Under the pieces are notes generated by a model. That model searched no databases and was not told where the DNA came from. It saw nothing but the letters and a program-made list of their open reading frames with translations. DNA of 64,000 nucleotides from an uncultured bacterium (GTDB lineage Bacteria; Bacillota_I; Bacilli_A; RFN20; CAG-826). Position numbers and translations under genes: made by a program. Below, piece by piece: positions 3,628 to 64,000 of this stretch. The stretch covers positions 62,001 to 126,000 of the forward strand of contig CASDWE010000003.1 of NCBI GenBank assembly GCA_949284685.1, given 5' to 3'. The first letter of the stretch is position 1. Each line of letters starts with the position of its first letter.

Positions 3628-4394
3628 AAACAAATAGTTTGTTAATTAAACTTAGCAAATATTTCCCCAAAAAAATTGCTAGACAATATCATGATTATGT
3701 TGGACTGATGTGTGGTAAGTTAAAAAATGACACAAATAAAGTTTTAATTTGTTTAGATTTTGATGATGAAGTATTGCCATATGTCAAATCATTTAAACCA
3801 GATATTGTATTTACTCATCATCCTTTTATTTATGGAAGAAAAAGTTATGTGTTAAAAAATGATTTGATTAAAAAAAGACTATATGATGAAATGTTGTCAT
3901 TAAATGTTCCTATTTATAGCATGCACACTAATTTTGATGCTGGAAAAGGCGGGATGAATGATACTTTAATTAGGCTTTTAGATGTTAAAAATATCCATAG
4001 AAGTAGTATTGATTCAATGATGTGTATAGCAAATTTAAATCATCCTTTAAGTGCATTAGAGTTATCTAAACAAATAAAAAAAGCATTTGATGTTGATTAT
4101 GGTTTACTAGTTTGTAATGATAATGACAAAATCATTAATACAATTGCTTTGATTGCAGGTGGTGGCTCAAGAAGTTGGCAAATTGCTAAAGAAGAAAACG
4201 CTGATATGTATATTTCTGGTGATGCACCACATCATGTTCGTAGAGACATTATTAACAATAATTATTGCTATTTAGATTTACCGCACGAAATCGAAAAAAT
4301 ATTCATGCCTAGACTAAAAGAAATATTGCTAAAAATAGATGAAAAATTAGAAATATTAATTGTTGATCATGAAAAATTACCTTACGTTATTTAA
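3624..4394 (+). CDS. yqfO: Nif3/YqfO-family metal-binding protein, short form
   Basis: Member of the widespread NIF3 (DUF34) family of dinuclear-metal proteins. Its biochemical role is unsettled; annotations such as GTP cyclohydrolase type 2 homologue are provisional. Metal-ligand motifs are visible: THHPFIY near residue 64, HTNFDAGKGGMND near 100, GDAPHH near 199 and DLPHE near 219. At 256 residues it lacks the PII-like insert found in the ~370-residue B. subtilis YqfO. It starts inside the trmK stop (ATGA overlap). Its 3' end overlaps the convergent ispH gene by 18 nt. Confidence 0.88.
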   Translation: MKTNSLLIKLSKYFPKKIARQYHDYVGLMCGKLKNDTNKVLICLDFDDEVLPYVKSFKPDIVFTHHPFIYGRKSYVLKNDLIKKRLYDEMLSLNVPIYSMHTNFDAGKGGMNDTLIRLLDVKNIHRSSIDSMMCIANLNHPLSALELSKQIKKAFDVDYGLLVCNDNDKIINTIALIAGGGSRSWQIAKEENADMYISGDAPHHVRRDIINNNYCYLDLPHEIEKIFMPRLKEILLKIDEKLEILIVDHEKLPYVI

Positions 4395-5252
4395 TATAAA
4401 ATTTTTAATATTTTCTAATTGATTGATATGACAACTTGTACCGCCTAAAACAATTATGTGGTGCAAGTTTTTTAATTTATCTAAATTGACTTCTTTTTCG
4501 TCTTGAACAAATAATATTGTACAGTCTGAATATTTATTTAAGCACATCTCGTATAACCGCATTGTATTAGAAGATTTTTTAGAGCCAACAACAACGATTC
4601 CATCAACATTTTTTGGCAAATTTAATATTTCTTCTTGGCGATTGCGAGTGAATTTGCAAATTTCATCCGCGATAGTAATTTTGTTTGTAATTTTTTTTAA
4701 ATCGTTATGTATTTTATATAAATCAATAAAACTCAATGTTGTTTGATTAATGCAAAAATAACTATCATTAGTATTTATTTGGTTATAAATTGGTAATTTA
4801 TAATCTATAAATATAATATCTTTATTAATAGATAACATTGCATTTGTTTCAGGATGATTCTTAATTCCTATGTATATTATCTTTTGATTTTTATTTAAAG
4901 CATCTAAAATTAATTTCATACATTGTTGTACCATCGGACAAATAGCGTCAATTTTAATTAGCTTTTTTTCTTCGACAATTTTATCAAGATTTATATCATG
5001 ACCATGTGCGGAAAAAATAATTACAGAACCACATTCTAAGTTTTTAATAGCTTCTTGATATTCATTAAGAGAAACATCAAGCGTTTCTATGCCGTATTTA
5101 TTCAAGATGTCTACAACATAATTATTATGAATTAACATACCTAGCACATATATTTTTTTGTTTGGATATTTTTTTCTTGCATTGATAGCAATATCAATCG
5201 CATTTTTAACTCCAAAACAATATCCAGAATTTTTTAAAAGTTCTACTTTCAT
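4377..5252 (-). CDS. ispH: 4-hydroxy-3-methylbut-2-enyl diphosphate reductase IspH
   Basis: Iron-sulfur enzyme of the last MEP-pathway step, making IPP and DMAPP. The three cluster cysteines are seen in SGYCFGV (residue 11 from this start), CPMVQQC (about 97) and DEICKFTRNRQ (about 194). The GSKKSSNT substrate motif and GGTSC near the C-terminus are also present. I choose ATG at 5252 over the ATG at 5258. An extended -10 (TGTTAAAAT) ends 6 nt before 5252, which would put the transcript start on that codon, and no Shine-Dalgarno is seen. The gene is convergent with yqfO and opposite to its syntenic neighbours; in B. subtilis the same genes are co-directional. Confidence 0.94.
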   Translation of the reverse strand: MKVELLKNSGYCFGVKNAIDIAINARKKYPNKKIYVLGMLIHNNYVVDILNKYGIETLDVSLNEYQEAIKNLECGSVIIFSAHGHDINLDKIVEEKKLIKIDAICPMVQQCMKLILDALNKNQKIIYIGIKNHPETNAMLSINKDIIFIDYKLPIYNQINTNDSYFCINQTTLSFIDLYKIHNDLKKITNKITIADEICKFTRNRQEEILNLPKNVDGIVVVGSKKSSNTMRLYEMCLNKYSDCTILFVQDEKEVNLDKLKNLHHIIVLGGTSCHINQLENIKNFILNNVR

Positions 5253-5258
5253 GCTCAT

Positions 5259-6673: not shown

Positions 6674-7564
6674 ATGAATGAATTGTTAATTGGATGTCAT
6701 GTTAGTTTAAATGCGCCTGATTTTTATTTAGGAACAGTTAAAGAAGCATTAAGCTATGGTGCTACAACTTTTATGTTTTATACAGGAGCGCCACAAAATT
6801 CTTATCGTCGAGACATTAAAGATATGAAAATAGATGAAGGTAGGGAATTATTAAAAGCAAATGGAATTGACGAATCTAAAATTGTAATTCACGCGCCATA
6901 CATCGTAAATTTAGCTAATGATACAGATAAAAACAAGCACGAAAAAGCAAAAGAATTTATTTTAAATGAATTAATCAGATGCCAAGCTTTTAATGTTAAA
7001 ACGATGGTTTTGCATCCTGGTGCGCACGTTAATCTTGGAGTTGAAAGAGGTTTAAATAACATTATTAAATCGTTAGATGACATTTTCGATAATCTTCCAA
7101 ATGAAAACAAAGTTAATATTGCATTAGAAACGATGGCAGGAAAAGGGAGCGAATTAGGCACATCTTTTGAACAAATTGCTTTTATGATTAAAAATAGCAA
7201 ACATCAAGATAGACTTGGAGTTTGTTTAGATACTTGTCATATTAGTGATGCTGGATATGATATATTCGATGAGAATAAAATAATTGAAGAATTTGATAAA
7301 ATTATCGGCTTAGATAAATTATTAGTCATACATGTAAATGATTCGAAAAATCCGCGTGGAGCACACAAAGATCGTCATGAAAATATTGGTTATGGTGAGA
7401 TTGGATATGAAGCGTTAAGCAAATTTGTTTTAGACAAACGCCTATCAAATATCCCAAAAATTTTAGAAACACCATATGTTAATGGCAAACCACCATATAA
7501 AACAGAGATTGATATGTTTAAAAACAATAAATTTGAAAAAGATTGGAAAAATCAGTTTATTTAA
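6674..7564 (+). CDS. nfo: Endonuclease IV (AP endonuclease)
   Basis: Zinc-dependent AP endonuclease of base-excision repair that cuts 5' of abasic sites. Metal-binding signatures are present: HPGAH near residue 115, GVCLDTCHISDAGYD near 181, and HVNDSKNPRGAHKDRHENIG near 220. The length of 296 residues is normal for the family (AP2Ec TIM barrel). It follows cshB by one base, so the two are co-transcribed; a purine-rich AGGAAGGGG lies about 14 nt upstream. Its 3' end overlaps the convergent ispG by 8 nt. Confidence 0.95.
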   Translation: MNELLIGCHVSLNAPDFYLGTVKEALSYGATTFMFYTGAPQNSYRRDIKDMKIDEGRELLKANGIDESKIVIHAPYIVNLANDTDKNKHEKAKEFILNELIRCQAFNVKTMVLHPGAHVNLGVERGLNNIIKSLDDIFDNLPNENKVNIALETMAGKGSELGTSFEQIAFMIKNSKHQDRLGVCLDTCHISDAGYDIFDENKIIEEFDKIIGLDKLLVIHVNDSKNPRGAHKDRHENIGYGEIGYEALSKFVLDKRLSNIPKILETPYVNGKPPYKTEIDMFKNNKFEKDWKNQFI

Positions 7565-8615
7565 TCATTTCATTAATTTCGTTTATTAATTCTTGATAAA
7601 CATTTTTTTCTTCAATTTTTCGAACTATTTTACCTTTTTTAAAAAGAACAAAATTACCTTTACCACCTGCTATTCCAATATCTGCACTTTTTCCTTCGCC
7701 AGGACCATTTACTATGCAACCCATAATTGCTACGGTTAGATTGATATTGTTATTTTCTAAATAATTTAATACTTTTTTGGCAAGATTTGTCACATCGACC
7801 ATTGTTCTTCCGCAAGTAGGACAAGAAATTATTGTTGGATAATTTGGATATAATCCCAAATCATGAAGCAATCTTTTTGCCGCTACTATTTCTTGATATG
7901 GATTACCGCTTATAGAAATGCGAATCGTATCTCCTAATCCAAGCAATAGTAAAGGCGATAGGCCGGCACTTGAACGAATAAGCGATATTTCATTAATACT
8001 TGCTTCGGTAATTCCAATATGCAATGGATAATTGTATTTTTTAGCGGCAGAAATATATGCTGCAATAGTTGTTTTAATATTTGAGCCTTTTAAAGACAAA
8101 ACAATGTTATCAAATCCGTATTTATTAAATATTTTTATTTGTTTGTTTATAGATTTAATCATGTCATTTTCGTTGATGGGTCTTTGATAATCGTTGATTG
8201 TTTTATCGATTGATCCAGAATTAACTCCTATTCGAATAGGAATATTTTTTTCTTTAGCGAGAAATAAAATCTCTTTAACATGTTCTTCATTTGATATATT
8301 TCCTGGATTAATACGAATAGCATCAATGCCATTTTTAATAGCTAAAATTGCTAATTTATAATCAAAATGTATATCGCCAATCAATGGTATGCTAATATGC
8401 TTTTTAATACTTTTTATAGCGTTAGCGTCCCTTTTATCCATAATTGAGACACGCATTAAATCTGCACCTAAATTTTGACATTTATTAATTTGTTTAACTA
8501 TAGCAGAAACATGGCTAGTTTTAATATTGCACATCGATTGAATTAAAACTTTGTCGCTCCCTCCAATAAATATATTTCCGACTTTGATTTTCTTAGTGTT
8601 TTTTCTTGTATACAT
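7557..8615 (-). CDS. ispG: 4-hydroxy-3-methylbut-2-en-1-yl diphosphate synthase IspG
   Basis: [4Fe-4S] enzyme of the MEP pathway converting MEcPP to HMBPP, the substrate of IspH encoded 3 kb away. The TIM-barrel part carries GDIHFDYKLA and RINPGNI. The cluster ligands are CPTCGR (cysteines near 265 and 268) and GCIVNGPGE (near 300). The length of 352 residues is normal for the short bacterial form. The start ATG has no ribosome site but has TATTAT exactly 6 nt upstream, suggesting a leaderless message. The gene is convergent with nfo and divergent from rpmG. Confidence 0.95.
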   Translation of the reverse strand: MYTRKNTKKIKVGNIFIGGSDKVLIQSMCNIKTSHVSAIVKQINKCQNLGADLMRVSIMDKRDANAIKSIKKHISIPLIGDIHFDYKLAILAIKNGIDAIRINPGNISNEEHVKEILFLAKEKNIPIRIGVNSGSIDKTINDYQRPINENDMIKSINKQIKIFNKYGFDNIVLSLKGSNIKTTIAAYISAAKKYNYPLHIGITEASINEISLIRSSAGLSPLLLLGLGDTIRISISGNPYQEIVAAKRLLHDLGLYPNYPTIISCPTCGRTMVDVTNLAKKVLNYLENNNINLTVAIMGCIVNGPGEGKSADIGIAGGKGNFVLFKKGKIVRKIEEKNVYQELINEINEMIK

Positions 8616-12811: not shown

Positions 12812-13549
12812 TCACATCCAAGATATTTTTCTTTCATTGCCATTTTTAATTCGTATGATGTTGTCTTTATGACGAATAATTAACACTATCATAGCAAGTG
12901 TCATAACTAATGCAAATACCCATCCTGGACATAACGTATTACCATACATTGCAATCAAATCAAAATTAGGAATACAAGTTAACCAGCTTGCTATTGCAGC
13001 AACGATTGAACCTATAATGGAACTTAAAGAAATATATTTTTTAATTTTCAGTGTAACAAAAAAAGTAATAATTGATGTTATTCCTACAAACCAAGATGAA
13101 AATAGTGCACTTGAAAAAGTTATCGCTGCAGCTTTCCCGCCTTGGAATTTTGCAAATATCGGATAACAATGACCAATAACCGCACTTATAATAATCAGCC
13201 AATATATTGGCCATTTGATTAGATAATTATCAGTGTTTCCACTAATCATCATTTCAGCGGTTGGGATTAGCGGTATATTATCAAACATATTAACGTAAGT
13301 TAATATAGCCCAAACTGACCAAAGTGGAATCGCCAATTTTATGAAATCTAAAATATAAACGATGATTCCATATTTGAATCCCCATAATCTAGATGCATTC
13401 GTGCCACCAGAATTTTTAGAGCCAAAATGTCGTGGATCTTGTTTGAATAACAATTTACCAACTATAACGCCGCTTGGAATTGAGCCAAACAAATAGCCAA
13501 TTATTATGATGATAACCGAACAAATTATGTTTACTGCAATCTCATTCAT
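12812..13549 (-). CDS. plsY: Glycerol-3-phosphate acyltransferase PlsY
   Basis: Membrane acyltransferase that transfers acyl groups from acyl-phosphate to glycerol-3-phosphate, starting phospholipid synthesis. Family motifs are GYLFGSIPSG (helix 1), GSKNSGGTNASR (about 43-54, the usual GSGNxGATN substrate loop) and GHCYPIFAKFQGGKAAA (about 128-144). Several membrane helices are clear. At 245 residues it is longer than the usual ~200, with an extra loop at roughly 80-120. The stop codon is TGA. It diverges from parE, which is also its neighbour in many Firmicutes. Confidence 0.92.
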   Translation of the reverse strand: MNEIAVNIICSVIIIIIGYLFGSIPSGVIVGKLLFKQDPRHFGSKNSGGTNASRLWGFKYGIIVYILDFIKLAIPLWSVWAILTYVNMFDNIPLIPTAEMMISGNTDNYLIKWPIYWLIIISAVIGHCYPIFAKFQGGKAAAITFSSALFSSWFVGITSIITFFVTLKIKKYISLSSIIGSIVAAIASWLTCIPNFDLIAMYGNTLCPGWVFALVMTLAMIVLIIRHKDNIIRIKNGNERKISWM

Positions 13550-13636: not shown

Positions 13637-15580
13637 ATGGCTGAAAATATCGATAAAATTAGTTATGCCGCTGATGACATTGAGTTATTGCGAGGTTTAG
13701 AAGCGGTTAGAAAAAGACCAGGCATGTATATAGGAAGTACAAACTCAAGTGGTCTTCATCATTTGGTTTGGGAAATTGTTGATAACTCGATTGATGAAGC
13801 GATGTCTGGCTTTGGCAATAAAATTAGTATAACTATCCACAAAGATGGTTCAATTACTATCAGCGATGAAGGGCGTGGAATTCCTACGGGAATTCAAAGT
13901 CAAACACATAAACCGGCAATTGAATTAGTATTTGGTGAACTTCACGCTGGAGGAAAGTTCAATAATTCTTCTTATAAAAGTGCAGCTGGTTTACATGGTG
14001 TTGGTGCTAGTGTTACCAATGCTTTAAGCAGTTGGCTTGATGTTATAGTCCATCGTGAAGGAAAAATTTTTCATATTCGTTATAAAGATGGTGGAAAAAT
14101 TGATATTCCTCTTGAAGTAATTGGAACAACAAATAAGCATGGTACGACAGTAACATTCAAACCAGATCCAACTATATTTTCAACTGTGGAATTTAAATGG
14201 GACACAATATATAATCATTTACAAGAATCAGCGTTTTTATTAAGAAAAGTTCACTTTTATTTAAAAGACGAACGTTCAAATTTAAATCAAGAATTTTATT
14301 ATGAAGATGGTTTAAAAGAATACATTCTCACTGTTAATCAAAACAAAAGACCGCTGACAGATATTATTTATTTTAATGGCAACGTCTCTGATATTGAAAT
14401 TGAAATCGCTATGCAATATTGTTATAGCGATTATAACGAAACTATTTTTTCTTATGCTAATAATGTTAGAACAAGAGATGGTGGAACTCATGAAACAGGT
14501 TTTAAACTTGGCGTGACGCGTGCTGTTAACGAATTTATTGATAATAACAAATTAGCGAAAGGCAAAAAATTAGAAGGTAGCGATATTAGAGAAGGATTAA
14601 CTAGCGTTATTTCTTTAAAAATTCCTGAAAAAAAATTAGAATTTGAAGGACAAACAAAATCTAAGTTAGGTACTCCAGAAGCTACCAGTGCAGTTAGTAA
14701 CTTTATTTATGAAAAATTTTCTTACTATCTAACTGAAAATAAAGAAATCGCATTAAATATTATTTCTAAATGCATTGATTCGTATAACACTCGTCTTGCT
14801 GCTAGAAAAGCAAAAGAAGAAGCTCGAAGTAATAAAAAAGTTAAACAAGAAATTATTTTATCCGATAAATTAACTCCTGCCCAAAGCAAAGACTATTTAA
14901 AAAATGAATTATTTATCGTCGAGGGTGATTCTGCCGGTGGTACTGCAAAAAAAGGAAGAGATAGAATTCATCAGGCGATTCTTCCACTTCGTGGAAAACC
15001 TTTAAATACTGATTCCATTACCGTAGAAAAATTATTACAAAATGAGGAATTTGCAACAATTATCAATACCATAGGTGCGGGTTTTGGACAATCTTTTGAT
15101 ATTGATGATATTAAATACGGAAAAATTATTATCATGACTGATGCTGATACTGATGGTGCACATATTCAAACCTTGCTTTTAACATTTTTTTATAATTATA
15201 TGCGAAGTTTAATTACTACTGGTCATGTTTATGTTGCTGCACCTCCTTTGTATCGAGTCTATAAAGAAGAAAAAAATCATAAAGTAAACGAAAAATATGC
15301 TTGGAATGATCAAGATTTGGAAAAAGCTAAAAAAGCAATAGGACCAGGATATAAAATTAACCGATATAAAGGTCTTGGCGAAATGAATGAAGTTCAATTA
15401 AAAAAGACGACGATGGATCCTGCTTCTCGTTTATTAATTCAAGTACGAATCGATGATCCTTTATTTGTTGAAAAACAAGTTGGCATTTTAATGGGAAAAG
15501 ACACTTCCAATCGTCGACGCTGGGTAGAAGAAAACGTTGATTTTAATAAAGTTGATACATTTATTAATGAGGTCAAATAA
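13637..15580 (+). CDS. parE: DNA topoisomerase IV subunit B
   Basis: ATPase subunit of topoisomerase IV, which decatenates daughter chromosomes. The GHKL ATPase domain carries EIVDNSIDEA, DEGRGIP and HAGGKF...GLHGVGASVTNAL. The TOPRIM domain has EGDSAGG near residue 433 and DADTDGAHI near 506. I prefer ParE to GyrB because of details such as LTPAQSK before EGDSAGG and the closing ILMGKD..NRRRWVEENV, which match S. aureus ParE, and because the adjacent subunit is ParC-like. One base separates it from parC. It lies 6 kb from dif in the terminus region. Confidence 0.9.
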   Translation: MAENIDKISYAADDIELLRGLEAVRKRPGMYIGSTNSSGLHHLVWEIVDNSIDEAMSGFGNKISITIHKDGSITISDEGRGIPTGIQSQTHKPAIELVFGELHAGGKFNNSSYKSAAGLHGVGASVTNALSSWLDVIVHREGKIFHIRYKDGGKIDIPLEVIGTTNKHGTTVTFKPDPTIFSTVEFKWDTIYNHLQESAFLLRKVHFYLKDERSNLNQEFYYEDGLKEYILTVNQNKRPLTDIIYFNGNVSDIEIEIAMQYCYSDYNETIFSYANNVRTRDGGTHETGFKLGVTRAVNEFIDNNKLAKGKKLEGSDIREGLTSVISLKIPEKKLEFEGQTKSKLGTPEATSAVSNFIYEKFSYYLTENKEIALNIISKCIDSYNTRLAARKAKEEARSNKKVKQEIILSDKLTPAQSKDYLKNELFIVEGDSAGGTAKKGRDRIHQAILPLRGKPLNTDSITVEKLLQNEEFATIINTIGAGFGQSFDIDDIKYGKIIIMTDADTDGAHIQTLLLTFFYNYMRSLITTGHVYVAAPPLYRVYKEEKNHKVNEKYAWNDQDLEKAKKAIGPGYKINRYKGLGEMNEVQLKKTTMDPASRLLIQVRIDDPLFVEKQVGILMGKDTSNRRRWVEENVDFNKVDTFINEVK

Positions 15581-18187
15581 ATGGCTAAGAAGACAAAAAA
15601 AGAAGAAGTAGAAATCAAAGAAAATATATCGAGTGAACCATTAGAAGAGGTTATGGCTGATCGTTATGCCACATACGCTAAATATGTCATACAAGATCGT
15701 GCTATTCCAGATGTTAGAGATGGTTTAAAACCAGTTCAAAGACGTATTTTGTTTGCTATGTATAATAATGGCAATACTTTTAATAGACCAACTAGAAAAT
15801 GTGCTCATAGCGTTGGCGAAGTTATGGGTAAATACCATCCACATGGTGATACATCAATTTATGAAGCTCTTGCCCGTATGAGTCAAGATTGGAAAGTGCG
15901 AGCTCCTTTAATAGATTTTCAAGGAAATAATGGTAGTATCGATGGCGATTCTCCAGCCGCGTATCGTTATACCGAAGCAAGACTAAGTCAACTTGCTAAT
16001 GAAATGTTAAAAGATATTGATAAAAATACTGTTGATATGCAATTAACATTTGATGATAGTGAATTTGAGCCTACTGTTTTACCTGCCCGTTTTCCAAATT
16101 TATATGTTAATGGCAGTGAAGGTATTGCTGTTGCTTTAGCAACAGAAATTCCAACACACAATTTGCGTGAAGTTATTAATGCGACAATTTATCGTATTAA
16201 TCATCCAAATTGTTCATTAGATGATTTATTAAATATAATTCCTGGACCAGATTTTCCTACAGGTGGAATTATATACAATAGTGATGGGCTTAGATCTATT
16301 TATGAAAATGGACGTGGAAGAATAGAAATAGCTGCTCGTTATCAAATTGTCGATAATGGTTCTATTAAACAAATAGTTATTAATGAAGTTCCTTATAAAG
16401 TAGTTAAAAAGAATATCGTTTATGAAATTGATAAAATTCGCCACTCCAAATCAATAGATGGAATTATTGAAGTGCGAGATGAAAGCGATTTTAATGGTAT
16501 ACGAATTGTTGTTGATGTTAGAAAAAATGCACCAGTCGATTTAATTGTTTCGTATTTGTTAAACAAAACTTCCATGAAAGTTTCATATAGTGCAAATATC
16601 GTAGCAATTGTTGATGGCCGTCCAAAAACACTATCATTAACTGATTATCTTGATGCTTACATTTCTCATCAAGTAGATGTTTTAACCCGCTTATTGAAAT
16701 TTGAATTAGATAAATTATCTGCTCGATTACACATAGTTGAAGGTTTGATTTTAGCAGCTTTAAATATTAATGATGTTGTTGAAATAATTCGCCATAGTAA
16801 AGATAAACAAGACAGTAAATTAAATATTATTGCCAAATATGATTTATCTAACGAACAGGCTGAAGCTATCGTTATGATGCCTCTATATAAGTTAAGTCAC
16901 ACTGATATTGAGACTTTACAAAACGAAAAGGAACAATTAATTAATGATATAAATTATCACAAAGAAACTTTAGCGGATCCTAAAAAAATTAACAAGGCTA
17001 TTATCAACGATTTAAATCAAATTAGCAAAACATATGGTGACGCTAGAAGAACAAGTTTTGAAGACAAAGTTGAACAAGGTCCAATCGATAAGAGATTTTT
17101 AATTAGTAAAGAAAAAATATATTTTTCTATTACAAAGGATGGATATTTTAAACGTTCAAGTCAAAAATCGTATTTATCTTCGTTAGAAAAAAATCCTTAT
17201 CCTGAAGTCAAACAAGGTGATGCACTAATTGCGATTGATTGTGCTTACACAACCGATTTCCTTCTTTGTTTTACGAATTTAGGAAATTATATGTACGTAC
17301 CTATTTTTGAAATCGAAGATAATAAATGGAAAGATAAAGGTGTTCATATTAATTCACTTATAACTATGAATGGAAATGAAAAAATTGTCTCTGTAATAGT
17401 CGCAGATAAATTAAGAGATGATTTATTTACAATATTATTAACTAAAAATGGTCAAATTAAGCGTACACCAACTAATTTTTATCAAACAAATGTCAGAGCA
17501 AGACCAATCAAATGTATTAAGTTAGCAAATGGTGATGAACTTGTTGATGTTAAATTATCTACTGGAAATGCAAATATTATGGTATTTTCTAGTCTTGGAT
17601 ATTATGCAATGTTTAATGAAAACGAATTGCTACCATTATCTTTAAAAGCTTCTGGTGCTAAAGCAATGTCATTAAAAGGTGGACAATCCGCGGTTGATTT
17701 GGTTATTTCTCAATTGGAAGAAAAAACCAAAATAGTTTTAATTACAGATAAATCATGCTTAAGAATTTTTGATACTAGCCGTGGGGTAGTTTCAAATCGT
17801 TTAAGCAAGAATCAAATTGTTTTTAAATCATTTAAAAGCGACATTCATCATTTAGTCTACGCTCATAAAGTTATTTTAGATGATAAAGACAATATGAATG
17901 TGTTACTATATGATAACAATTACGATTCGAAAGAACTCACAATTGATGATTTCCATTTGACTGATATTGAAAAATATGCCAAGAAAAACATTGATTTAAT
18001 GTTAGTAAAAGAAAGAATTAGACATGTTTTTGCTAAAGGATGCGATTACATTAATGATGAAATCAAATCCCAACCAATCATTCTTAAAAAAGACATTTCA
18101 AATTTAGAAAAAGAAGAAATGCAAGAAAATAATGATGAAAGCAAATCCAATGTTGAACAAATTACTTTATTTGATGATTTTGAATAA
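15581..18187 (+). CDS. parC: DNA topoisomerase IV subunit A
   Basis: DNA-cleaving subunit partnered with ParE. The breakage domain has the catalytic tyrosine Y130 in AAYRYTEARLS and the quinolone-region motif HPHGDTSIYEA (86-96), with threonine at the position usually serine. GNNGSIDGDSPAA and the C-terminal beta-pinwheel match ParC. The GyrA-box (QRGGKG) is absent from the C-terminal domain, which instead has GAKAMSLKGGQS, supporting ParC over GyrA. Its length of 868 residues is slightly above average because of an acidic tail. The ATG follows directly after the parE stop, so translation is coupled. Confidence 0.9.
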   Translation: MAKKTKKEEVEIKENISSEPLEEVMADRYATYAKYVIQDRAIPDVRDGLKPVQRRILFAMYNNGNTFNRPTRKCAHSVGEVMGKYHPHGDTSIYEALARMSQDWKVRAPLIDFQGNNGSIDGDSPAAYRYTEARLSQLANEMLKDIDKNTVDMQLTFDDSEFEPTVLPARFPNLYVNGSEGIAVALATEIPTHNLREVINATIYRINHPNCSLDDLLNIIPGPDFPTGGIIYNSDGLRSIYENGRGRIEIAARYQIVDNGSIKQIVINEVPYKVVKKNIVYEIDKIRHSKSIDGIIEVRDESDFNGIRIVVDVRKNAPVDLIVSYLLNKTSMKVSYSANIVAIVDGRPKTLSLTDYLDAYISHQVDVLTRLLKFELDKLSARLHIVEGLILAALNINDVVEIIRHSKDKQDSKLNIIAKYDLSNEQAEAIVMMPLYKLSHTDIETLQNEKEQLINDINYHKETLADPKKINKAIINDLNQISKTYGDARRTSFEDKVEQGPIDKRFLISKEKIYFSITKDGYFKRSSQKSYLSSLEKNPYPEVKQGDALIAIDCAYTTDFLLCFTNLGNYMYVPIFEIEDNKWKDKGVHINSLITMNGNEKIVSVIVADKLRDDLFTILLTKNGQIKRTPTNFYQTNVRARPIKCIKLANGDELVDVKLSTGNANIMVFSSLGYYAMFNENELLPLSLKASGAKAMSLKGGQSAVDLVISQLEEKTKIVLITDKSCLRIFDTSRGVVSNRLSKNQIVFKSFKSDIHHLVYAHKVILDDKDNMNVLLYDNNYDSKELTIDDFHLTDIEKYAKKNIDLMLVKERIRHVFAKGCDYINDEIKSQPIILKKDISNLEKEEMQENNDESKSNVEQITLFDDFE

Positions 18188-19862: not shown

Positions 19863-20153
19863 ATGTTAACCAATGATAATAAAAGACATTTAAAATCATT
19901 ATCCAATCAAATAAAATTACGATATCAAATTGGCAAAAACGGATTAACAAAAACTAGTTTTGATTTATTTGATAAAGCTTTAACCGCACACGAATTAATT
20001 AAAATAGATGTTTTAAAATCATATTCTAATCCAATTAATGAATTAGCGTTTGATTTATCTAGTAAATTAAACGCTGATATTGTCAGTATTGTCGGGCGCG
20101 TTATTTGTCTTTATCGTTATTCTGAAAAAAATGGAGTAAAACATATTTTATGA
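19863..20153 (+). CDS. yhbY: CRM-domain RNA-binding protein YhbY
   Basis: A 96-residue CRS1-YhbY (CRM) domain protein that binds pre-50S ribosomal particles. The conserved N-terminal LKSLSNQIKLRYQIGKNGLT (GxxG-type RNA-binding loop) and the C-terminal IVGRVICLYR are visible. It sits between yqeH and nadD as in most Firmicutes. The stop TGA overlaps the next ATG (ATGA), implying coupled translation. Confidence 0.9.
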   Translation: MLTNDNKRHLKSLSNQIKLRYQIGKNGLTKTSFDLFDKALTAHELIKIDVLKSYSNPINELAFDLSSKLNADIVSIVGRVICLYRYSEKNGVKHIL

Positions 20154-21253
20154 TAAAAAATATCGTCCTATTTGGTGGATCTTTTGACCCAATTCATAAC
20201 GGACATATTAACATGGCTATAAAAGCTCAACAGTTTTTAGGTGGAATAAATAATTGTAAAGTAATTTTTTTGCCAAATCGTGTCAGTGTTTGGAAAGAAG
20301 AAAGCGTCGATGCAAATGACAAGCTAAACATGATTAAATTAGCAATAAAAGATTATGTTAACCTGGATGTTGATGATTTCGAATTAAATTCACAAACAGA
20401 AAATTATACATATTTATCAATTCAACACTTTATGAATATTTATAAAAATGAAAAAATTAAACTTTATTTTTTAATTGGAAGCGATCAGGTTGAATTGTTT
20501 CACTTATGGAAAAATGCTAAAGAAATATCAAAGCTTGTACAACTTATATATTATCCACGTCCTAATTTTAAATTTACAAACGATAATATTAATAAATTTA
20601 AAATAATCAAAGTAAGTGGTGATGAATTAGTGGATGTTTCAAGCAATTCCATTCGCGATTTAAATAATTTAGACATCCCAGATGTGGTTTTAAATTATAT
20701 AAATAATCATGATTTATATTTTTTAAGAAAAATTGCTAAATATATCGATAACAAAAGATATTTGCATAGCAAGTCAGTTGCAATGCTTGCAAAACAAATA
20801 GCGGTTTCAAATAATATTGAAAGGCCATGGCGATATTATATAGCTGGCATTTTGCATGATGTTGGAAAAAATGTTTCAGAAAGTCAACAAAAGAAAATCG
20901 AAAACGAATATAAAGAATATATGCCAATGTCATATAAACTATATCATCAATTCAATAGTGCTTATATCGCACATGACGATTTTAAAATAACCGATGAAGA
21001 TATTTTATTTGCCATAAGATATCATGCGACAGGGAATAAGAATATGTCGTTATTAGCAATGACAGTTTACGCTGCGGATAAAATCGATCCATTAAGAGGA
21101 TATGATTCTAGTGATATGATTAATAAAATGAAATCAAATATCATTGAAGGATTCAAATACGTATTAGGGCAAAATAAAGAATATTTAATGAGTAAAAATT
21201 CTAATATTGATAACATATTAACCAAACAATGTTTTGAATGTTATCTAAATTGA
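20150..21253 (+). CDS. nadD: NadD-YqeK fusion: nicotinate-nucleotide adenylyltransferase plus HD hydrolase
   Basis: Two-domain protein of 367 residues. Residues 1-185 are NadD: nucleotidyltransferase motif GGSFDPIHNGH (8-18) and SSNSIRD near 165. It makes deamido-NAD for NadE. Residues about 190-367 are YqeK-like: HSKSV near 206, YIAGILHDVGKN near 230-240, and RYHATGN near 280. This is an HD-family phosphohydrolase; YqeK proteins hydrolyse diadenosine tetraphosphate. In B. subtilis these are two adjacent genes. A similar fusion is known from mycoplasmas. rsfS, which normally follows, is absent. The gene ends with TGA 20 bp before dif. Confidence 0.92.
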   Translation: MIKNIVLFGGSFDPIHNGHINMAIKAQQFLGGINNCKVIFLPNRVSVWKEESVDANDKLNMIKLAIKDYVNLDVDDFELNSQTENYTYLSIQHFMNIYKNEKIKLYFLIGSDQVELFHLWKNAKEISKLVQLIYYPRPNFKFTNDNINKFKIIKVSGDELVDVSSNSIRDLNNLDIPDVVLNYINNHDLYFLRKIAKYIDNKRYLHSKSVAMLAKQIAVSNNIERPWRYYIAGILHDVGKNVSESQQKKIENEYKEYMPMSYKLYHQFNSAYIAHDDFKITDEDILFAIRYHATGNKNMSLLAMTVYAADKIDPLRGYDSSDMINKMKSNIIEGFKYVLGQNKEYLMSKNSNIDNILTKQCFECYLN

Positions 21254-21273: not shown

Positions 21274-21301
21274 ACTTCGCATAATGACTATTATGTAAAC
21301 C
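21274..21301 (+). other. dif: dif chromosome-dimer resolution site
   Basis: A 28-bp site with 11-6-11 layout: XerC arm ACTTCGCATAA, centre TGACTA, XerD arm TTATGTAAACC. The outer ACTTC and the TTATGTAAAC arm match the B. subtilis dif as I recall it, and CGCATAA matches E. coli dif. The inner CATAA/TTATG bases are inverted repeats. It lies in a convergent gap exactly where gene orientation switches from mostly + to all -, and xerD is 3.7 kb away. Confidence 0.87.
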
Positions 21302-21422: not shown

Positions 21423-21965
21423 TTACAACGCTCCATTTATGATTAAAAAATAGTAATTGCGTAAAATTAAATCGACTTTTTCTTTAGATAAATAAAGACG
21501 ATCGTTTTCATGCTGCGGACCATTTATTACTTGTTTTGTATAAAGTCTTAATTTATCAATCGTTCTGATTTGATTTATGACCGCTAAAGTTTGCTGACCA
21601 TCTTTTAATCCTTTGACTTCTCCGATATTTATGTCACTTCTTGGATGCGGTCCAAAACGATTTGTTTTTAAAGGACATACTATTACTAATGGATTATGTA
21701 TACCAGAATCTGCTAATACAACTCCGTAGTGACGATTTGAAAATTCTGCATTAACATTTATTCCCCAATCAAATTCATAAATTTCACCTTTCTTTAAATT
21801 ATACTTAACACTATGATTTAACGAATAAATAGAATATTCTAATTGCCTTTTTATCCATTCTACTTGTCCTAGAAGCTTTTTAAATGCCTCGTTTTTTTCT
21901 TGTGTTAAATTTGTTGTTTGAAAATTCATTTCTTTTTTAAAATTTAATTCATTTTGTTCAATCAT
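21423..21965 (-). CDS. PemK/MazF-family toxin-like protein without adjacent antitoxin
   Basis: A 180-residue protein whose residues about 60-175 resemble the PemK/MazF endoribonuclease fold: KGEIYEFDWGINVNAEF, YGVVLADSG, PLVIVCPLKTN, INQIRTIDKLRLY. In this family such proteins cut RNA and are held by an antitoxin. Residues 1-60 form a charged helical extension of unknown role. No antitoxin gene is adjacent: upstream is an ABC permease, downstream the dif region. The ribosome site AGGAGG is ideal, but it forms the 3' arm of a hairpin followed by six T. It may be an orphan toxin or a domesticated RNase. Family call fairly sure, activity unknown. Confidence 0.75.
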   Translation of the reverse strand: MIEQNELNFKKEMNFQTTNLTQEKNEAFKKLLGQVEWIKRQLEYSIYSLNHSVKYNLKKGEIYEFDWGINVNAEFSNRHYGVVLADSGIHNPLVIVCPLKTNRFGPHPRSDINIGEVKGLKDGQQTLAVINQIRTIDKLRLYTKQVINGPQHENDRLYLSKEKVDLILRNYYFLIINGAL

Positions 21966-23763: not shown

Positions 23764-24975
23764 TTAAAATAATTCTTTAATAACGCTACCAATTAAATTA
23801 TTTGGCTTTTCTAATTTAAAATTATATAGAATAGTCGCACCTATATCAGCGAAAGAATTTCTTTTATCTAACATTTTTCCATTATCAAATAATTTACTAT
23901 ACATTAATAATGGAACTCGTTCTCTAGTGTGATCAGTGCCATGCCAAGTTGGATCGTTTCCATGATCAGCAGTAATGATCAAAAGGTCATCTTGTCGCAA
24001 ATCTTTCAATAATGAATTTAATTTGACATCAAACTGTTCGATGGCTTTTCCATAGCCAAGAGGATTTCGCCTATGGCCAAATTCAGAATCGAATTCAACA
24101 AGATTAACAAAACATAAGCCAAGATTAAAATTAGAATTATTAACTTCGTTTTGTGTGATATCCATACCATTATCATTTGAAATAGTTTTTTGTGTTTTTG
24201 TTACACCATATCCATCAAATATATCGCCAATTTTTCCCACACAACTAACCATTATTCCATTGTCATCTAAAATATTCATAACAGTTTTATGAGGTGGCTT
24301 TAAAGCTAAATCGTGACGGTTCGGCGTGCGTTTGAAATTATCTTTGTTTGTACCAACAAAAGGTCTTGCGATAACTCTTCCAACACGATATTTACTTTGC
24401 ATGCATAATTTTCTAGCAATTTCGCAACAACGATAAAGTTCTTCTAAACCTGTAACTTCTTCATGTGCGGCAATTTGCAAGACTGAATCAGCACTTGTAT
24501 AAACAATTAAAGAATTTTCTTTCATTTGTTGCTCGCCAAGTTCTTTAATAATTTCTGTTCCGCTGGCGGCAATATTTCCAATAATTTTATGACCAGTTTC
24601 TTTTTCAAGTTCATCAATTAATTCTTTTGGAAAACCTGTCTCGGTAAATGTAACAAATGGCTCGACAGTTTTAATTCCCATCATTTCCCAATGGCCAGTC
24701 ATTGTATCTTTTCCAACACTTTCTTCTTGTGCTTTGCAAACAAAACTATTTGGATGTTCTACTTTATTGGTGCCTTGAATATTATCTAAATCACCTAACC
24801 CTAAACTATTTAAAGTTGGAATATTAAGACCATGACATTCATTAGAAATGTGGACTAAGGTGTTTGCACCTTCATCGTTATATTGATAAGAAGTTTCATC
24901 ATAACCAATACCGACACTGTCCATAACAATGACGAATACTCTTTTAAATTTTTTAAAGCGTTCAGCGTTATTCAT
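23764..24975 (-). CDS. deoB: Phosphopentomutase
   Basis: Converts (deoxy)ribose-1-phosphate to the 5-phosphate in nucleoside salvage. The alkaline-phosphatase-type metal sites are visible: [10 protein letters not shown] near residue 15, [10 protein letters not shown] near 90 (catalytic threonine), and [18 protein letters not shown] near 340. The length of 403 residues is normal. GGAGGT precedes the ATG. The neighbour xerD matches the B. subtilis xerD-drm arrangement. Confidence 0.95.
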
Positions 24976-25030: not shown

Positions 25031-25912
25031 TCAGTTATTTTTCATAAAAGAATCATAGGCAGAAATAATTCTTTTAGATGACACGTGCGTGTAGATTTGT
25101 GTGGTGGCAATATTAGTGTGTCCTAACATTTCTTGAACTATTCTTAAATCCGCACCATTTTCTAACATGTGTGTCGCAAAGCAATGTCTTAAAGTATGAG
25201 GAGAAATATTTTCTTTAATTCCTGCTAATAAAGCATACTTTTTTATTCTTTTGAAAAAATATTGTCTAGACAAAGGCTCACCATATTTACTCAAAAATAA
25301 ATATTCAGATTTTGCTTTAACATTTTTGCTTCTCACATCGTTTATATATTTTATCACAAATTCACTAGCAAATTCTCCAAAAGGAACTTTTCTTTGTTTT
25401 TTACCTTTTCCCATTACTGTTACAATGTTTTCTTTTAAATCAATATCACCTTTTTTAAGATTCAATAATTCGCTGACACGTAAACCGCTTGCGTACATCA
25501 TTTCAAGCATAGCTTTATCTCTTATTTCGTCATCTTTTTCTAAATTTGGTGCATCCAACAAAGCTTCTACTTCCTCAAATGAAATTAAAGTTGGAAGATG
25601 AAAAGGCTTTTTTGGTGCATCAACTTCTTCAATAGGTATATTTAATATTTCTTCTTTAACTAAAAACATAAAAAATCCTTTTAAAGATGATAATCTTCGC
25701 AGTGCTGTAGTGACACTTTTTTTGTTTTCTAATTGGAATTTTAAAAATTCTGATAAATCATCTTCTTCAATTTCGTTTGTATCAGTTATTTTTTTAAAAA
25801 CATCGGTGTACAAATTAATATCTTCTAAATAAGCTTTGCAAGTCAAAATCGAGAGACCTTTTTCCGCTAAAAGATATTGATAATAATTATCTATTGCGTC
25901 TTTTATGTCCAT
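25031..25912 (-). CDS. xerD: Tyrosine recombinase XerD
   Basis: Site-specific recombinase that with XerC resolves chromosome dimers at dif. The N-terminal SAM-like DNA-binding domain is at 1-85. Catalytic residues are R145 (ASGLRVSEL), K169, H239 and R242 (SPHTLRH), H265 (LGHTNIATTQ) and Y274 (IYTHV). Its 293 residues fit XerC/XerD. XerD rather than XerC is inferred from its place next to deoB. GGAG lies 8 nt before the ATG, which overlaps the end of dinB by 26 nt. It lies 3.7 kb from the dif site. Confidence 0.92.
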   Translation of the reverse strand: MDIKDAIDNYYQYLLAEKGLSILTCKAYLEDINLYTDVFKKITDTNEIEEDDLSEFLKFQLENKKSVTTALRRLSSLKGFFMFLVKEEILNIPIEEVDAPKKPFHLPTLISFEEVEALLDAPNLEKDDEIRDKAMLEMMYASGLRVSELLNLKKGDIDLKENIVTVMGKGKKQRKVPFGEFASEFVIKYINDVRSKNVKAKSEYLFLSKYGEPLSRQYFFKRIKKYALLAGIKENISPHTLRHCFATHMLENGADLRIVQEMLGHTNIATTQIYTHVSSKRIISAYDSFMKNN

Positions 25913-47919: not shown

Positions 47920-48024
47920 AAATGTCCTCCTTTTTTTAAACTAATGACTCGCTTTCAAGGTATAATGCATAGCATTAATTTATAACCTTTTTAAGGCGGT
48001 TGTAGCCAAATATAGGCGACAACG
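47920..48024 (-). ncRNA. L21 leader (5' UTR of the rplU operon)
   Basis: Transcribed leader between the promoter and rplU. It can fold: GTTGT with ACAAC near 48021-48000, and an imperfect hairpin around GGTTATAAATTAATGC and GCATTATACC at 47987-47959. Position and structure fit the L21-leader class that senses L21 in Bacillus. Assignment is by context and fold, not by a covariance search. Confidence 0.6.
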
Positions 48025-51565: not shown

Positions 51566-51788
51566 ACTAATTCCTCCTAAAAAATAAAAAAACGTCCTCC
51601 ATAAGGACGCAATTATGCGCGGTACCACCTTAATTTATTAATTAATTAATACACTCGATTCGTTAACGCCGATATACGTAATTACTTAATCCTTACAAAC
51701 TGACTTCAATAATCTTTTCTAGACCCCACTTCCACCTTAAGGGGCTCTCTATCTAGCAGTATTATTTACTACTTTTTGTTCAACGGAC
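51566..51788 (-). promoter_or_regulatory. T-box riboswitch (valine) of valS
   Basis: The T-box sequence AAGGTGGTACCGCG lies at 51631-51618 on the minus strand. Upstream are an AGAGAG box and stem I; the 3' side of stem I reads GAAGTCAG, giving GTC (51704-51702), a valine codon, as specifier. A terminator hairpin follows. Uncharged tRNA-Val is expected to favour the antiterminator and turn on valS. Confidence 0.93.
51586..51609 (-). terminator. T-box-controlled terminator
   Basis: On the minus strand CGTCCT, loop TATGG, AGGACG, then seven T. Part of the left arm side competes with the T-box antiterminator. Confidence 0.9.
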
Positions 51789-51794
51789 AATTAA

Positions 51795-57696: not shown

Positions 57697-58746
57697 ATGC
57701 AAGAAAAATTAAAAATACTAGTCACTGGTGCCACTGGCCACGTTGGAAATAATCTAGTTAAAAAATTAAATTCAATAGGATTGACACCATATTGCTTGGT
57801 TTTGGAAAACGATAATTGTTTTTCTATTAGAAACGATTCATATAACAAAATCATAGGAAACATAATAGATCGAGAGCAAATGTTTTCCATCATTAAAGAA
57901 ATGGATATTGTCATTCATTTAGCCAGTCAAATTTCTATAAAAGCAAATGATGATTATTTAAAATTATATTCTGTTAATGTATCTGGCACTATTAATATAG
58001 CGGACGCTTGTTTAAATTATGATAAAAAACTAATTTATGCTAGTTCAGTTCACACAATTCCAATTACAATCAATAACAAGCCAATGAGCGAACCAACTTC
58101 ATTTAACATTGATACAAGTCATGGCAATTATGAAAAAACAAAATCGATTGCGACAGATTATGTATACAATTTGTCACATAATAAAGGTTTAAAAGCGACG
58201 ATTATTTATCCAAGCGGTATAATTGGTGAAAACGATTATTTTATTAGCGAATTGTCTACATTATTTATCGACATAGCAAATAAAAAATTACCAGGATATG
58301 TCAAAGGTGGATATGCTTTTGTCGATGTAAAAGATGTTGTTGATATGATTGTTGAAATAATAAATAGAAACAAATATAACACTGAATACATTATTTCGGG
58401 TGAATATTTATCAATAAAAGATGTAATAGAAACTATTAACAAATGCTACCAAAGAGACAAACTTCCTATATTATTTAGCACTTGGTTTGTCAAATGTATG
58501 ATTCCATTTCTTTCACTGCAGGCAAAAATAAAAAATAAAAAACCTCTTTTCACTTTTTATTCATTAAAAACAATATTGTCTAATTCTAATTTTGATATTT
58601 CTAAAGCTAAAAAAGAATTAAATTACGAGCCACGAGACGTCAAATTAAGCATTGTTAATGCATTAAATTGGCTTTTAAAAAACAAAGATTTTAAATTTAA
58701 TAAAAAAAGTAAATCCACTTTTAAAAATATTACTGCTACAATGTAA
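57697..58746 (+). CDS. NAD-dependent epimerase/dehydratase family protein 1
   Basis: Extended short-chain dehydrogenase, 349 residues. Cofactor motif VTGATGHVGNNLVKKL (residues 7-22), then VIHLASQ and YASSVHT; catalytic Y-x3-K is YEKTKS near 146. The C-terminal part resembles dihydroflavonol-reductase or nucleoside-diphosphate-sugar epimerase relatives. The substrate is unknown. AAGGAGGAAACAAG fixes the start. It is followed 2 nt later by a paralogue and diverges from a TetR regulator. Confidence 0.85.
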   Translation: MQEKLKILVTGATGHVGNNLVKKLNSIGLTPYCLVLENDNCFSIRNDSYNKIIGNIIDREQMFSIIKEMDIVIHLASQISIKANDDYLKLYSVNVSGTINIADACLNYDKKLIYASSVHTIPITINNKPMSEPTSFNIDTSHGNYEKTKSIATDYVYNLSHNKGLKATIIYPSGIIGENDYFISELSTLFIDIANKKLPGYVKGGYAFVDVKDVVDMIVEIINRNKYNTEYIISGEYLSIKDVIETINKCYQRDKLPILFSTWFVKCMIPFLSLQAKIKNKKPLFTFYSLKTILSNSNFDISKAKKELNYEPRDVKLSIVNALNWLLKNKDFKFNKKSKSTFKNITATM

Positions 58747-58748
58747 GT

Positions 58749-59753
58749 ATGAAACAAAATATATTTATAACTGGCGCTAGCGGTCATATTGGAAACGTTA
58801 TTATTAAAGAGCTATCTAATAATTATAAAGATGAAGTTTCAATAACTTGTTTATTATTAGAAAACGACAACGCTAATTATTTAAAAGATTTTGATTTGGA
58901 TATTATAAGAGGAAATATTTGTGACCGCGAGTTAATGTTTAAATTAATTAAAAAAAACGATATTGTCATCCATTTAGCAGGTATTATTTCCACATCAAAT
59001 AAAAACAAGGATTTGATGTACAATGTAAACTATTTAGGAAGCAAAAATATAGCGGATGCATGTTTTAAAAATAAAGCTAGACTAATATATGTTTCTTCAG
59101 TTCATGTTTTAAATTGCGAAAACGCTACAATTGACGAAAATGCTTCTTTAAATGTTTCTTCGCATCGTGGCGAATATGAAAAAACAAAAGCACTAGCAAC
59201 TTCCTATATAAAAGACTTATTTGATAATGGATTAGATGGATTAATATTTTATCCAAGTGCAATAATTGGACCGTTTGATTATTTATTAGGCGAAACATCA
59301 AGATCAATTATCAACATATATAACGGAAAATATCCTTTTTATCTCAATGGGGGCTATTCATTTGTCGATGTTAGAGATGTTTCTAAAATGATTGTAAAAG
59401 GTGCTTTAAGTAAAAATTTAAGTCGTCAATCTTACATTATTAGCAATGGCTATATTAGTGTAAAAGATTTAATTTTATATACGTCAAGTCTTTCTAAAAA
59501 ACCAAAAAAACATTTAATTTATGTTCCGTTATTTTTGGTTTATATAGCCCTACCATTTATTTCACTTTTTGCCAAAATTTCAAAGAAAAAGGTAATATTT
59601 AGTAAAAATATGGTAAAAACTATAACTAGTAATGGAAGTTTTAATATTTCAAAAATCAAAAAAGATTTAGATTACACACCAACAGATTTACACACCACTA
59701 TTAAAGATACGGTTGAATTTTTAAAAGAATATCAAAATTTAGATAAACAATAA
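58749..59753 (+). CDS. NAD-dependent epimerase/dehydratase family protein 2 (tandem paralogue)
   Basis: A 334-residue paralogue of the gene before it, similar through its whole length. ITGASGHIGNVIIKEL at the N-terminus, IVIHLAG, YVSSVHVL and the catalytic YEKTKA near 142. The shared wording (for example SHRGEYEKTK versus SHGNYEKTK, GGYSFVDVRDV versus GGYAFVDVKDV) shows tandem duplication, now well diverged. Both should lie in one TetR-controlled operon. The reaction is unknown. Confidence 0.85.
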   Translation: MKQNIFITGASGHIGNVIIKELSNNYKDEVSITCLLLENDNANYLKDFDLDIIRGNICDRELMFKLIKKNDIVIHLAGIISTSNKNKDLMYNVNYLGSKNIADACFKNKARLIYVSSVHVLNCENATIDENASLNVSSHRGEYEKTKALATSYIKDLFDNGLDGLIFYPSAIIGPFDYLLGETSRSIINIYNGKYPFYLNGGYSFVDVRDVSKMIVKGALSKNLSRQSYIISNGYISVKDLILYTSSLSKKPKKHLIYVPLFLVYIALPFISLFAKISKKKVIFSKNMVKTITSNGSFNISKIKKDLDYTPTDLHTTIKDTVEFLKEYQNLDKQ

Positions 59754-59755
59754 AA

Positions 59756-60472
59756 TTATCTAATCAAATCGCTTGGTACAATCATGCCAAGCAATTTTTG
59801 TGTTTGTTTTCCGTGTTCGCTAACAAAAACGCAAACAAGCTTTTTTCTATCGCGATTGTATTTATCAAAAACATCTAAAATATCGTCCAAATCATAATCT
59901 CTTGGTATAAATTCATATTTTTCAGAGATGTGTTTATTTAAAGGTATAAATTCAATAAAATCTTTTATTTTTAAGTTTTTAGTTTGGTTCGTTTTATTTT
60001 TTGCCATGTATAAAAATAAAACATTTGGTGAAAAAACGCCTATTAGATAACCATCTTTTAAAATAGGAATTTGGGTAAATCCTTTTTTAATCATTGTATC
60101 TAAAACATTTTCAATTAGTTCTTCTTCCTCTACATAATATAAATTACTAATTTTTGTCATTATATCATTTGCGGTAATTGGATTTTTTAACTCCTCTATT
60201 TCTTTTTTTAAAAAACCAATAGTTTCGTCTGATATAATAAGCAAATCTTTAGAATTCATATCAAATTCATGAACTAGATTGTTTCTTAATATCCTGATCA
60301 TATTTATTTGACGTGCTTTTTCAAAATTTTCCTTATTCGATGATGATTCTAATTTGTCTATATATCTTTGTATCATTGAAAAAGAACGCGAAAACTCTTT
60401 AAATTTATCTCTTAATAAGTCATCAAAAATATTATAAAGTCTAATAAATTCTTCAACATTATCTTTGTTCAT
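59756..60472 (-). CDS. CBS-domain protein with N-terminal HEPN-like helical domain
   Basis: A 238-residue protein. Residues about 95-235 contain two CBS motifs (ITANDIMTKISNLYYVEEEELIENVLDTMIKKGFTQIPI), usually an adenosyl-ligand sensor. Residues 1-90 are helical, with R63-N-N-L-V-H68 in ILRNNLVHE, matching the Rx4H motif of HEPN domains, some of which are RNases. The HEPN call rests on pattern only. TATAAT 6 nt upstream and no ribosome site suggest a leaderless message. Confidence 0.68.
   Translation of the reverse strand: MNKDNVEEFIRLYNIFDDLLRDKFKEFSRSFSMIQRYIDKLESSSNKENFEKARQINMIRILRNNLVHEFDMNSKDLLIISDETIGFLKKEIEELKNPITANDIMTKISNLYYVEEEELIENVLDTMIKKGFTQIPILKDGYLIGVFSPNVLFLYMAKNKTNQTKNLKIKDFIEFIPLNKHISEKYEFIPRDYDLDDILDVFDKYNRDRKKLVCVFVSEHGKQTQKLLGMIVPSDLIR
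59771..59799 (+). terminator. Candidate terminator inside the CBS gene 3' end
   Basis: GCTTGG, 10-nt loop, CCAAGC (59787-59792), then AATTTTT. On the + strand it would end the epimerase operon while coding on the other strand for the CBS protein. Confidence 0.45.
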
Positions 60473-60478
60473 ATAAAC

Positions 60479-60484
60479 ATTATA
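60479..60484 (-). promoter_or_regulatory. -10 for the CBS gene (leaderless)
   Basis: The minus strand reads TATAAT, GTTTAT, ATG. The corresponding -35 region falls in the degV terminator. Confidence 0.45.
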
Positions 60485-60486
60485 TA

Positions 60487-60508
60487 ATAAAAACGCCCGA
60501 AGGCGTTT
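60487..60508 (-). terminator. Intrinsic terminator after degV
   Basis: On the minus strand AAACGCC, TTCG tetraloop, GGCGTTT, then TTATTA. Confidence 0.82.
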
Positions 60509-60516
60509 ATATTTTT

Positions 60517-61401
60517 TTATTGAGGATTTCTCGAATCACAAAGTGCAAATAATGCAACTGTCCCTGGACCTGAATGTGCACCGATAGTTTGATCGATATA
60601 ATTAATGATAATTCTTTTAAATTTAACTTTTTTCTCTAACAAACTTATTAAATAATTAACATCGTCAATACAATCACAATGTCCGATAGCAATTACTTGA
60701 TTTTTTAAATCAACACCATGTTTTAAAAATTTTTCAGCCATAACTTGAAGCGATTTTTTTCTGCCTAATACTTTTGTAAATGGAATTAATTTACCTTCGT
60801 CGTTAACATGCAATACTGGTTTTATTCTTAATGCGTTACCTAAGAAATAACTAGCTTTGCTAACTCGACCTCCTCGATATAAATAAACCAAGTCTTCAAC
60901 GGTAAAATAATGCGCTAATTTTAATTTATTTTCTTCTAACCATTTTCTATTATCTTCTAAACTCATTCCGTTTTCCTTATTAACAGCAGCATGATAAACA
61001 AGCAAGCCTTGCCCTAATGACGCTGCTAAGGTATCAATGACTTCAATTTTGCGTTGTGGATATTTTTTTAAAAGAATATCTCTTGCAACTAAAGCGGAAT
61101 TATAAGTAGTTGATAATGCACTTGAAAATGCTAAATATAAAACATCAATCCCTTTTTTTAATAATTCTTCAAAATAATTTAAAAAACTTGTTTCGTTAAT
61201 TGCACTAGTTTTTATTACTGCGCCATTACGCATGCGATCATAAAAACCTTTATAATCTTGATCATGTTCTGGATCAAAACCAATATGTTCATCTCCATTT
61301 TCATCAATCCAGTACATTGAAATAATTCCTATATCGAATTTTTTGACTTCATCAGCGGGTAAATTAGAACATGAATCGCTTACAATTTTATAATTTTCCA
61401 T
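60517..61401 (-). CDS. DegV-family fatty-acid-binding protein
   Basis: DegV family, 294 residues. The family start YKIVSDSCSNLP, the loop GAVIKTSAINETSF near 65, the central SSALSTTYNSA near 95 and the C-terminal GAHSGPGTVALF are seen. Family members bind fatty acids, and some (FakB) deliver them to the kinase FakA. ATG at 61401 is chosen because AAGGAAA precedes it. A 20-bp palindrome lies at the expected transcript start. Confidence 0.9.
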   Translation of the reverse strand: MENYKIVSDSCSNLPADEVKKFDIGIISMYWIDENGDEHIGFDPEHDQDYKGFYDRMRNGAVIKTSAINETSFLNYFEELLKKGIDVLYLAFSSALSTTYNSALVARDILLKKYPQRKIEVIDTLAASLGQGLLVYHAAVNKENGMSLEDNRKWLEENKLKLAHYFTVEDLVYLYRGGRVSKASYFLGNALRIKPVLHVNDEGKLIPFTKVLGRKKSLQVMAEKFLKHGVDLKNQVIAIGHCDCIDDVNYLISLLEKKVKFKRIIINYIDQTIGAHSGPGTVALFALCDSRNPQ

Positions 61402-61430
61402 ATTTATATTTCCTTTCATAAAAAATATTT

Positions 61431-61485
61431 AATATCCTTTAAAGGATATTCGTTAATATATTAATTTGTTTTATTTGAATTTCAA
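61431..61485 (-). promoter_or_regulatory. degV promoter with 20-bp palindrome
   Basis: On the minus strand TTGAAA (61485-61480), 16-bp spacer, TAATAT (61463-61458). Right after, at 61450-61431, comes a perfect palindrome AATATCCTTTAAAGGATATT, placed at the predicted transcript start: an operator or a 5' hairpin. Confidence 0.55.
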
Positions 61486-61505
61486 TATATTGTTTGAACA
61501 CAAAA

Positions 61506-61532
61506 AGTAGAGATTAAAATATTTACTCTACT
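61506..61532. repeat. Inverted repeat in the degV-clc spacer
   Basis: AGTAGAG (61506-61512) and CTCTACT (61526-61532) flank a 13-bp AT spacer; a further partial copy AGTAGA follows at 61536. Possibly a second operator. Confidence 0.4.
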
Positions 61533-61604
61533 GATAGTAGAATTTTAAAAATTATTTAGTGTATTTCGGATATTTTTTATGCTTTATTTAAATTTTTTTT
61601 CGTT

Positions 61605-61610
61605 TATAAT
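61605..61610 (+). promoter_or_regulatory. -10 for clc (leaderless)
   Basis: TATAAT, GGCTTT, ATG. Expected +1 is the A of the start codon at 61617. Confidence 0.55.
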
Positions 61611-61616
61611 GGCTTT

Positions 61617-63587: not shown

Positions 63588-63999
63588 ATTCAATTAAAGG
63601 TCTTAAAAGCGAAGCATCATCATATTGGACAACCATTTTGCCATGCTGCTCGATATTAACCCACAAACTTCCGCCGCCAACTACTAATGCATAAAGCCAT
63701 AAAACTATATTCCAATTATTTTCATCCGCATATGTATATGCCACATTTTCATTTTCAAAAAAATAAAAATAAGCACTAGCGTCTTCGTTGTCACTAATAA
63801 TTAAATATTCATCATATTCATATGATTCATCACCTGAATAATCAAAATAATGCATTTCATATTCATCATTGTATAATTGATAAATTGATATAACTTCTTG
63901 GCAAGAATATTCTTTTTTTAAAGTATTGCTAACATTACAAGATGTAAGAGTTAAAGTAAATGGAAGTGTTAATGATATAATCTTATTTAAGGTTTTCAT
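63571..63999 (-). CDS. Hypothetical lipoprotein
   Basis: Not recognised. 142 residues with a lipoprotein signal ending in LTLTSC (cysteine at residue 21). The mature part is rich in Tyr, Asp, Glu and Asn and has one weakly hydrophobic stretch (about 100-115, LWLYALVVGGGSLW). The ATG is at 63999, so its promoter lies outside the window. TGA stop, overlapped by the AlkD-like gene. Confidence 0.65.
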   Translation of the reverse strand: MKTLNKIISLTLPFTLTLTSCNVSNTLKKEYSCQEVISIYQLYNDEYEMHYFDYSGDESYEYDEYLIISDNEDASAYFYFFENENVAYTYADENNWNIVLWLYALVVGGGSLWVNIEQHGKMVVQYDDASLLRPLIEYEQNL

Positions 64000-64000
64000 A

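Follow-up and report, generated by a model that had tools for sequence, protein, structure and literature searches.

A chromosomal dif site in the terminus region of an uncultured Bacilli genome and the linkage of xerD to dif across Bacilli

The dif site is the place where bacteria cut apart joined chromosomes. The Bacillus subtilis dif, served by the XerC- and XerD-type recombinases CodV and RipX, is a 28-bp site divided 11-6-11 and lies near a skew switch, as does the site described here; its ripX gene lies about 0.5 Mb from dif, whereas xerD here is 3.7 kb away. The layout is also that of the Escherichia coli dif, the site of XerC, XerD and FtsK, and a gamma domain of FtsK is present here too, with the XerC arm diverged relative to E. 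coli. Linkage between a recombinase gene and its terminus site has been described for xerS-difSL of streptococci and lactococci and for xerH-difH of epsilon-proteobacteria (PMC2731167, PMC5357621). Our locus shares this linkage with both, but XerS and XerH are single recombinases and the genome here has two. xerS, moreover, directly adjoins its site, and difSL is 31 bp long with an 11-bp centre, whereas here a canonical 28-bp dif is separated from xerD by 0.16–10 kb of mostly ordinary genes, depending on the genome. Kono et al. (PMC3025954) describe xerC as mostly near dif and xerD as generally near the origin, the reverse of the present arrangement.

The window analyzed is a stretch of 64,000 nucleotides (G000, contig C3, positions 62001–126000) from an assembly of 1,112,366 bases that is 96% complete and consists of three contigs (96, 860 and 157 kb). 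The 28 bases at 21274–21301 of the window read ACTTCGCATAATGACTATTATGTAAACC, exactly as located in a first-pass annotation made from the sequence, whose 11-6-11 division also proved right: ACTTCGCATAA is the predicted XerC-binding arm (21274–21284, +; assigned with per-column conservation), TGACTA the 6-bp central region (21285–21290, +) and TTATGTAAACC the predicted XerD-binding arm (21291–21301, +). The site thus has the dif layout of 28 bp, split 11-6-11, with the XerD arm TTATGTNAA. The arms are strongly conserved among relatives, TTATG in the XerD arm being invariant in 90 aligned sites, and variation is greatest in the inner four bases of the centre; genus g29 has an altered XerC arm, ACTTTCAATAA. 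The experimentally confirmed B. subtilis dif (ACTTCCTAGAATATATATTATGTAAACT, sequence in PMC3025954) is identical at 21 of 28 positions, and at 10 of 11 in the XerD arm.

We found one copy per chromosome, insofar as a 96% complete assembly represents it: no second site occurs at three or fewer mismatches in the 1,112,366 bases, with no matches for a reversed control. On a dif matrix built from 90 sites of relatives, its own included, the site scores 40.7 bits; the runner-up in the window is its own reverse complement at 3.0, followed by the next independent site at −2.8. In a scan of the family using a degenerate pattern with two mismatches allowed, the pattern was matched in 133 of 146 genomes, nearly always once, against about 15 matches for the reversed control (about 0.1 per genome). 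Two genomes of genus g4 (G003 and G035) have neither a dif pattern match nor a close XerD, and only one weaker Xer match; joint loss of dif and XerD is possible there, though these assemblies are fragmented.

The site lies at a sharp change of strand. Open reading frames of at least 100 amino acids to its left are nearly all on the plus strand, as the first-pass annotation had described, with exceptions at 4377–5258, 7557–8615 and 12812–13549 and a further one at 6889–7200 that is a spurious overlap; between 21423 and 57587 every one is on the minus strand, save two short ones nested antisense in longer frames. GC skew per 2 kb ranges from +0.02 to +0.20 on the left and from −0.03 to −0.22 on the right up to 58 kb. 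The replichore boundary falls at 21192–21229, where cumulative GC skew (21192) and purine skew (21229) reach their maxima, 45–82 bases from dif. Past 57.6 kb (57697–64000), strand bias and GC skew are mixed. Genome-wide skew was sampled over about 350 kb as pieces no longer than 20 kb: C2 is negative up to dnaA (C2:322 kb) and then positive to the contig end, and C3 is positive up to dif (C3:83 kb) and negative beyond. Two places depart from this: skew is close to zero over the initial 15 kb of C2 and turns positive locally in a 5-kb piece at C2:220 kb. In this sampling there is a single minus-to-plus switch, at dnaA, and a single plus-to-minus switch, at dif, which points to one origin and one terminus and makes the site the terminus switch.

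The first-pass annotation had read this site as marking the replication terminus and had named two findings that would overturn the call, a GC skew that does not change sign here and a better dif elsewhere; the sign changes within 82 bases of the site, and the assembly holds no better dif. The terminus reading gains further support from the family, across which the site is conserved once per genome, in the same convergent gap and beside the same xerD block. The expectation that the site would lie opposite dnaA holds only roughly, and exact opposition does not: the two arms between dnaA and dif measure about 621 and 491 kb (56:44) or 717 and 395 kb (64:36), according to where contig C1 is placed, and are not fixed in length because the assembly is in three contigs. 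A dif site shows where dimers are resolved and where the skew switches, which does not in itself prove that forks stop exactly at dif; replication termination near dif rather than at dif has been argued for (PMC3025954).

Only two genes in the genome carry the Pfam Phage_integrase domain, one XerC-like and one XerD-like. Each scores best on the expected NCBIfam model, slightly under the equivalog cut-off. The xerD gene (25031–25912, −) encodes a RipX-type tyrosine recombinase of 293 amino acids and faces dif from the 3.7 kb that had been reported for it; it scores 327.9 bits on TIGR02225 (1.7 bits short of the 329.6 cut-off) against 295.5 on the XerC model, and its alignment to E. coli XerD (1a0p, E=4e-61) keeps the R-K-H-R-H-Y catalytic set. 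The XerC-like gene lies far from dif, beside genes read as topA and rpsB (topA-xerC-rpsB). An FtsK gamma domain at C3:12 kb scores above cut-off, so that XerC, XerD and a gamma-bearing FtsK are all encoded. In a search for polar FtsK-guiding octamers, the B. subtilis-type octamer GAGAAGGG occurred only three times, and the strand-biased words resembled codon bias.

The last plus-strand gene before dif is a nadD-yqeK fusion (20150–21253, +; TIGR00482 and TIGR00488 both above cut-off) that ends 20 bases upstream. The first minus-strand gene after it is a solitary MazF/PemK-like gene (21423–21965, −; PF02452, 33.8 bits) of 180 amino acids, extended at its N-terminus and lacking an evident antitoxin partner, which stays first beyond dif in many family members. 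Between dif and xerD lies deoB (phosphopentomutase, 23764–24975, −), with which xerD forms a deoB-xerD block. E. coli topoisomerase IV acts at dif, and parE-parC, encoding topoisomerase IV, stands here 3 kb to the left (13637–18187, +), with parC above its NCBIfam cut-off and parE slightly below. Elsewhere in the window we noted a T-box leader (51600–51792, −; 109.5 bits) and a ribosomal protein L21 leader (47934–48011, −).

Two ways of explaining away the site were weighed. It could be an attachment site or pdif-type decoy belonging to an element that exploits Xer, and the MazF/PemK-like gene 122 bases past it fits that idea, toxin-antitoxin genes being common between pdif sites; the site is, however, alone in the genome with no second flanking copy, and it sits at the skew switch and at the equivalent place in relatives. 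Its uniqueness and family-wide conservation in place refute this origin, which we consider very improbable. A chance match at a strand switch is more improbable still: the degenerate pattern does yield occasional control matches at two mismatches, as the 0.1 per genome indicates, but the distance between 40.7 bits and −2.8 for the next independent site, together with the coincidence with the skew maximum, refutes it. The unique site, the skew switch, the encoded XerC, XerD and FtsK gamma domain and the conservation in the family together identify a canonical two-recombinase dif, predicted from these sequence features to be active in recombination.

We then have the linkage to xerD itself. Among family genomes with both on one contig, 112 of 113 have xerD 157–5932 bases from dif (median 3.6 kb), with constant geometry: xerD lies beyond the XerD arm, on the opposite strand, facing dif. 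The lone exception, G021, is a chance pattern match, and this genome has a diverged true site of the usual geometry at 4.3 kb from its xerD; with the chance match set aside, the linkage is 112 of 112. Identical geometry at 0.66–9.9 kb was found in 55 genomes from 13 further families of the order and class; a single f7 genome has dif and xerD linked in opposite polarity, 7.0 kb apart. Families f17, f18, f23, f25 and f27 are unlinked (36–236 kb). For genomes lacking a pattern match, plus G021 with its chance match only, the region around xerD was scanned with the matrix, which recovered twelve sites at 18–33.5 bits and one in G179 at 13.1 bits, all on the predicted side and strand and within 7.1 kb; the top shuffle score was 7.8 among the regions shuffled, which did not include that of G265. 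The same scan gave only a marginal site in G009 (3.8 bits) and no dif near xerD in G285, G297 (both f27) and G201 (f9). Counting recovered sites, the linkage is present in 17 families (f1–f7, f9, f11, f13–f16, f19, f20, f22 and f26), in one case with reversed polarity. Most of the Bacilli families sampled thus have xerD no more than about 10 kb from dif, nearly always located on one constant side and pointing towards it. An apparent internal TGA in two XerD homologues of relatives, considered as a tryptophan codon, was rejected; it is the terminal stop codon.

In 73 loci compared for gene order, xerD was found in 16 families, deoB in 15, dinB in 9, a parC homologue on the left flank in 7 (33 loci) and nadD-yqeK in 5. 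Families differ in their left flank and in what separates dif from deoB; deoB-xerD is constant, and of the 68 dif loci examined that carry xerD, 61 keep deoB. Even in the unlinked families, most loci examined have deoB and xerD side by side. On the XerD tree, where unlinked families are nested among linked ones, the linked or unlinked state needs three changes, and none of 500 shuffles needed as few. The simplest account takes dif–(variable genes)–deoB–xerD as the probable ancestral order of Bacilli, since lost about three times. Staphylococci and lactic acid bacteria are probably among the unlinked families, although this is a guess.

The linkage may be more than inherited: selection could maintain it, for instance if XerD synthesized near its target finds that target sooner. 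That 17 families have the linkage despite changes in the intervening genes and on the opposite flank of dif speaks for selection, as do the seven of 68 loci that retain xerD without deoB, some with xerD only 157–754 bases from dif; that seven-to-zero comparison is biased, because most loci were chosen for their linkage. On the other side, deoB is retained in almost as many families as xerD (15 versus 16), the two form an old block that stays together even where dif is distant, and the linkage has been lost three times without loss of dif. We regard selection as a doubtful explanation, under which xerD and dif would be a functional unit like the single-recombinase module xerS-difSL. Equally tentative is the broader proposal of an ancestral, selection-held unit in Bacilli, made of a two-recombinase dif and a facing xerD within about 10 kb on the XerD-arm side, with the unlinked families secondary.

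We are highly confident in the plainer reading, that a small-genome, gut-type member of the Bacilli has its chromosomal dif here and that the linkage to xerD is inherited. XerC, encoded far away, would bind the left arm and XerD, encoded nearby, the right arm. A gamma-domain translocase of the FtsK/SpoIIIE type would pair both dif copies of a dimer at the septum, and the dimer would be separated by strand exchange across the 6-bp centre. The site occupies the replichore boundary, where two blocks of leading-strand genes converge and leave a gap.

The site itself is ordinary in kind; what deserves attention is how consistently xerD lies close to it. Our literature search, which was not exhaustive, found no report of xerD-dif linkage in two-recombinase systems, in which it may so far have gone undescribed. 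For this uncultured lineage the site serves as a marker of the terminus region of replication and as an aid in orienting assemblies. Proximity to xerD is a practical rule for locating diverged dif sites in draft genomes, having given 12–13 sites missed by the pattern, and it makes testable whether recombinase-site linkage is confined to single-recombinase systems.
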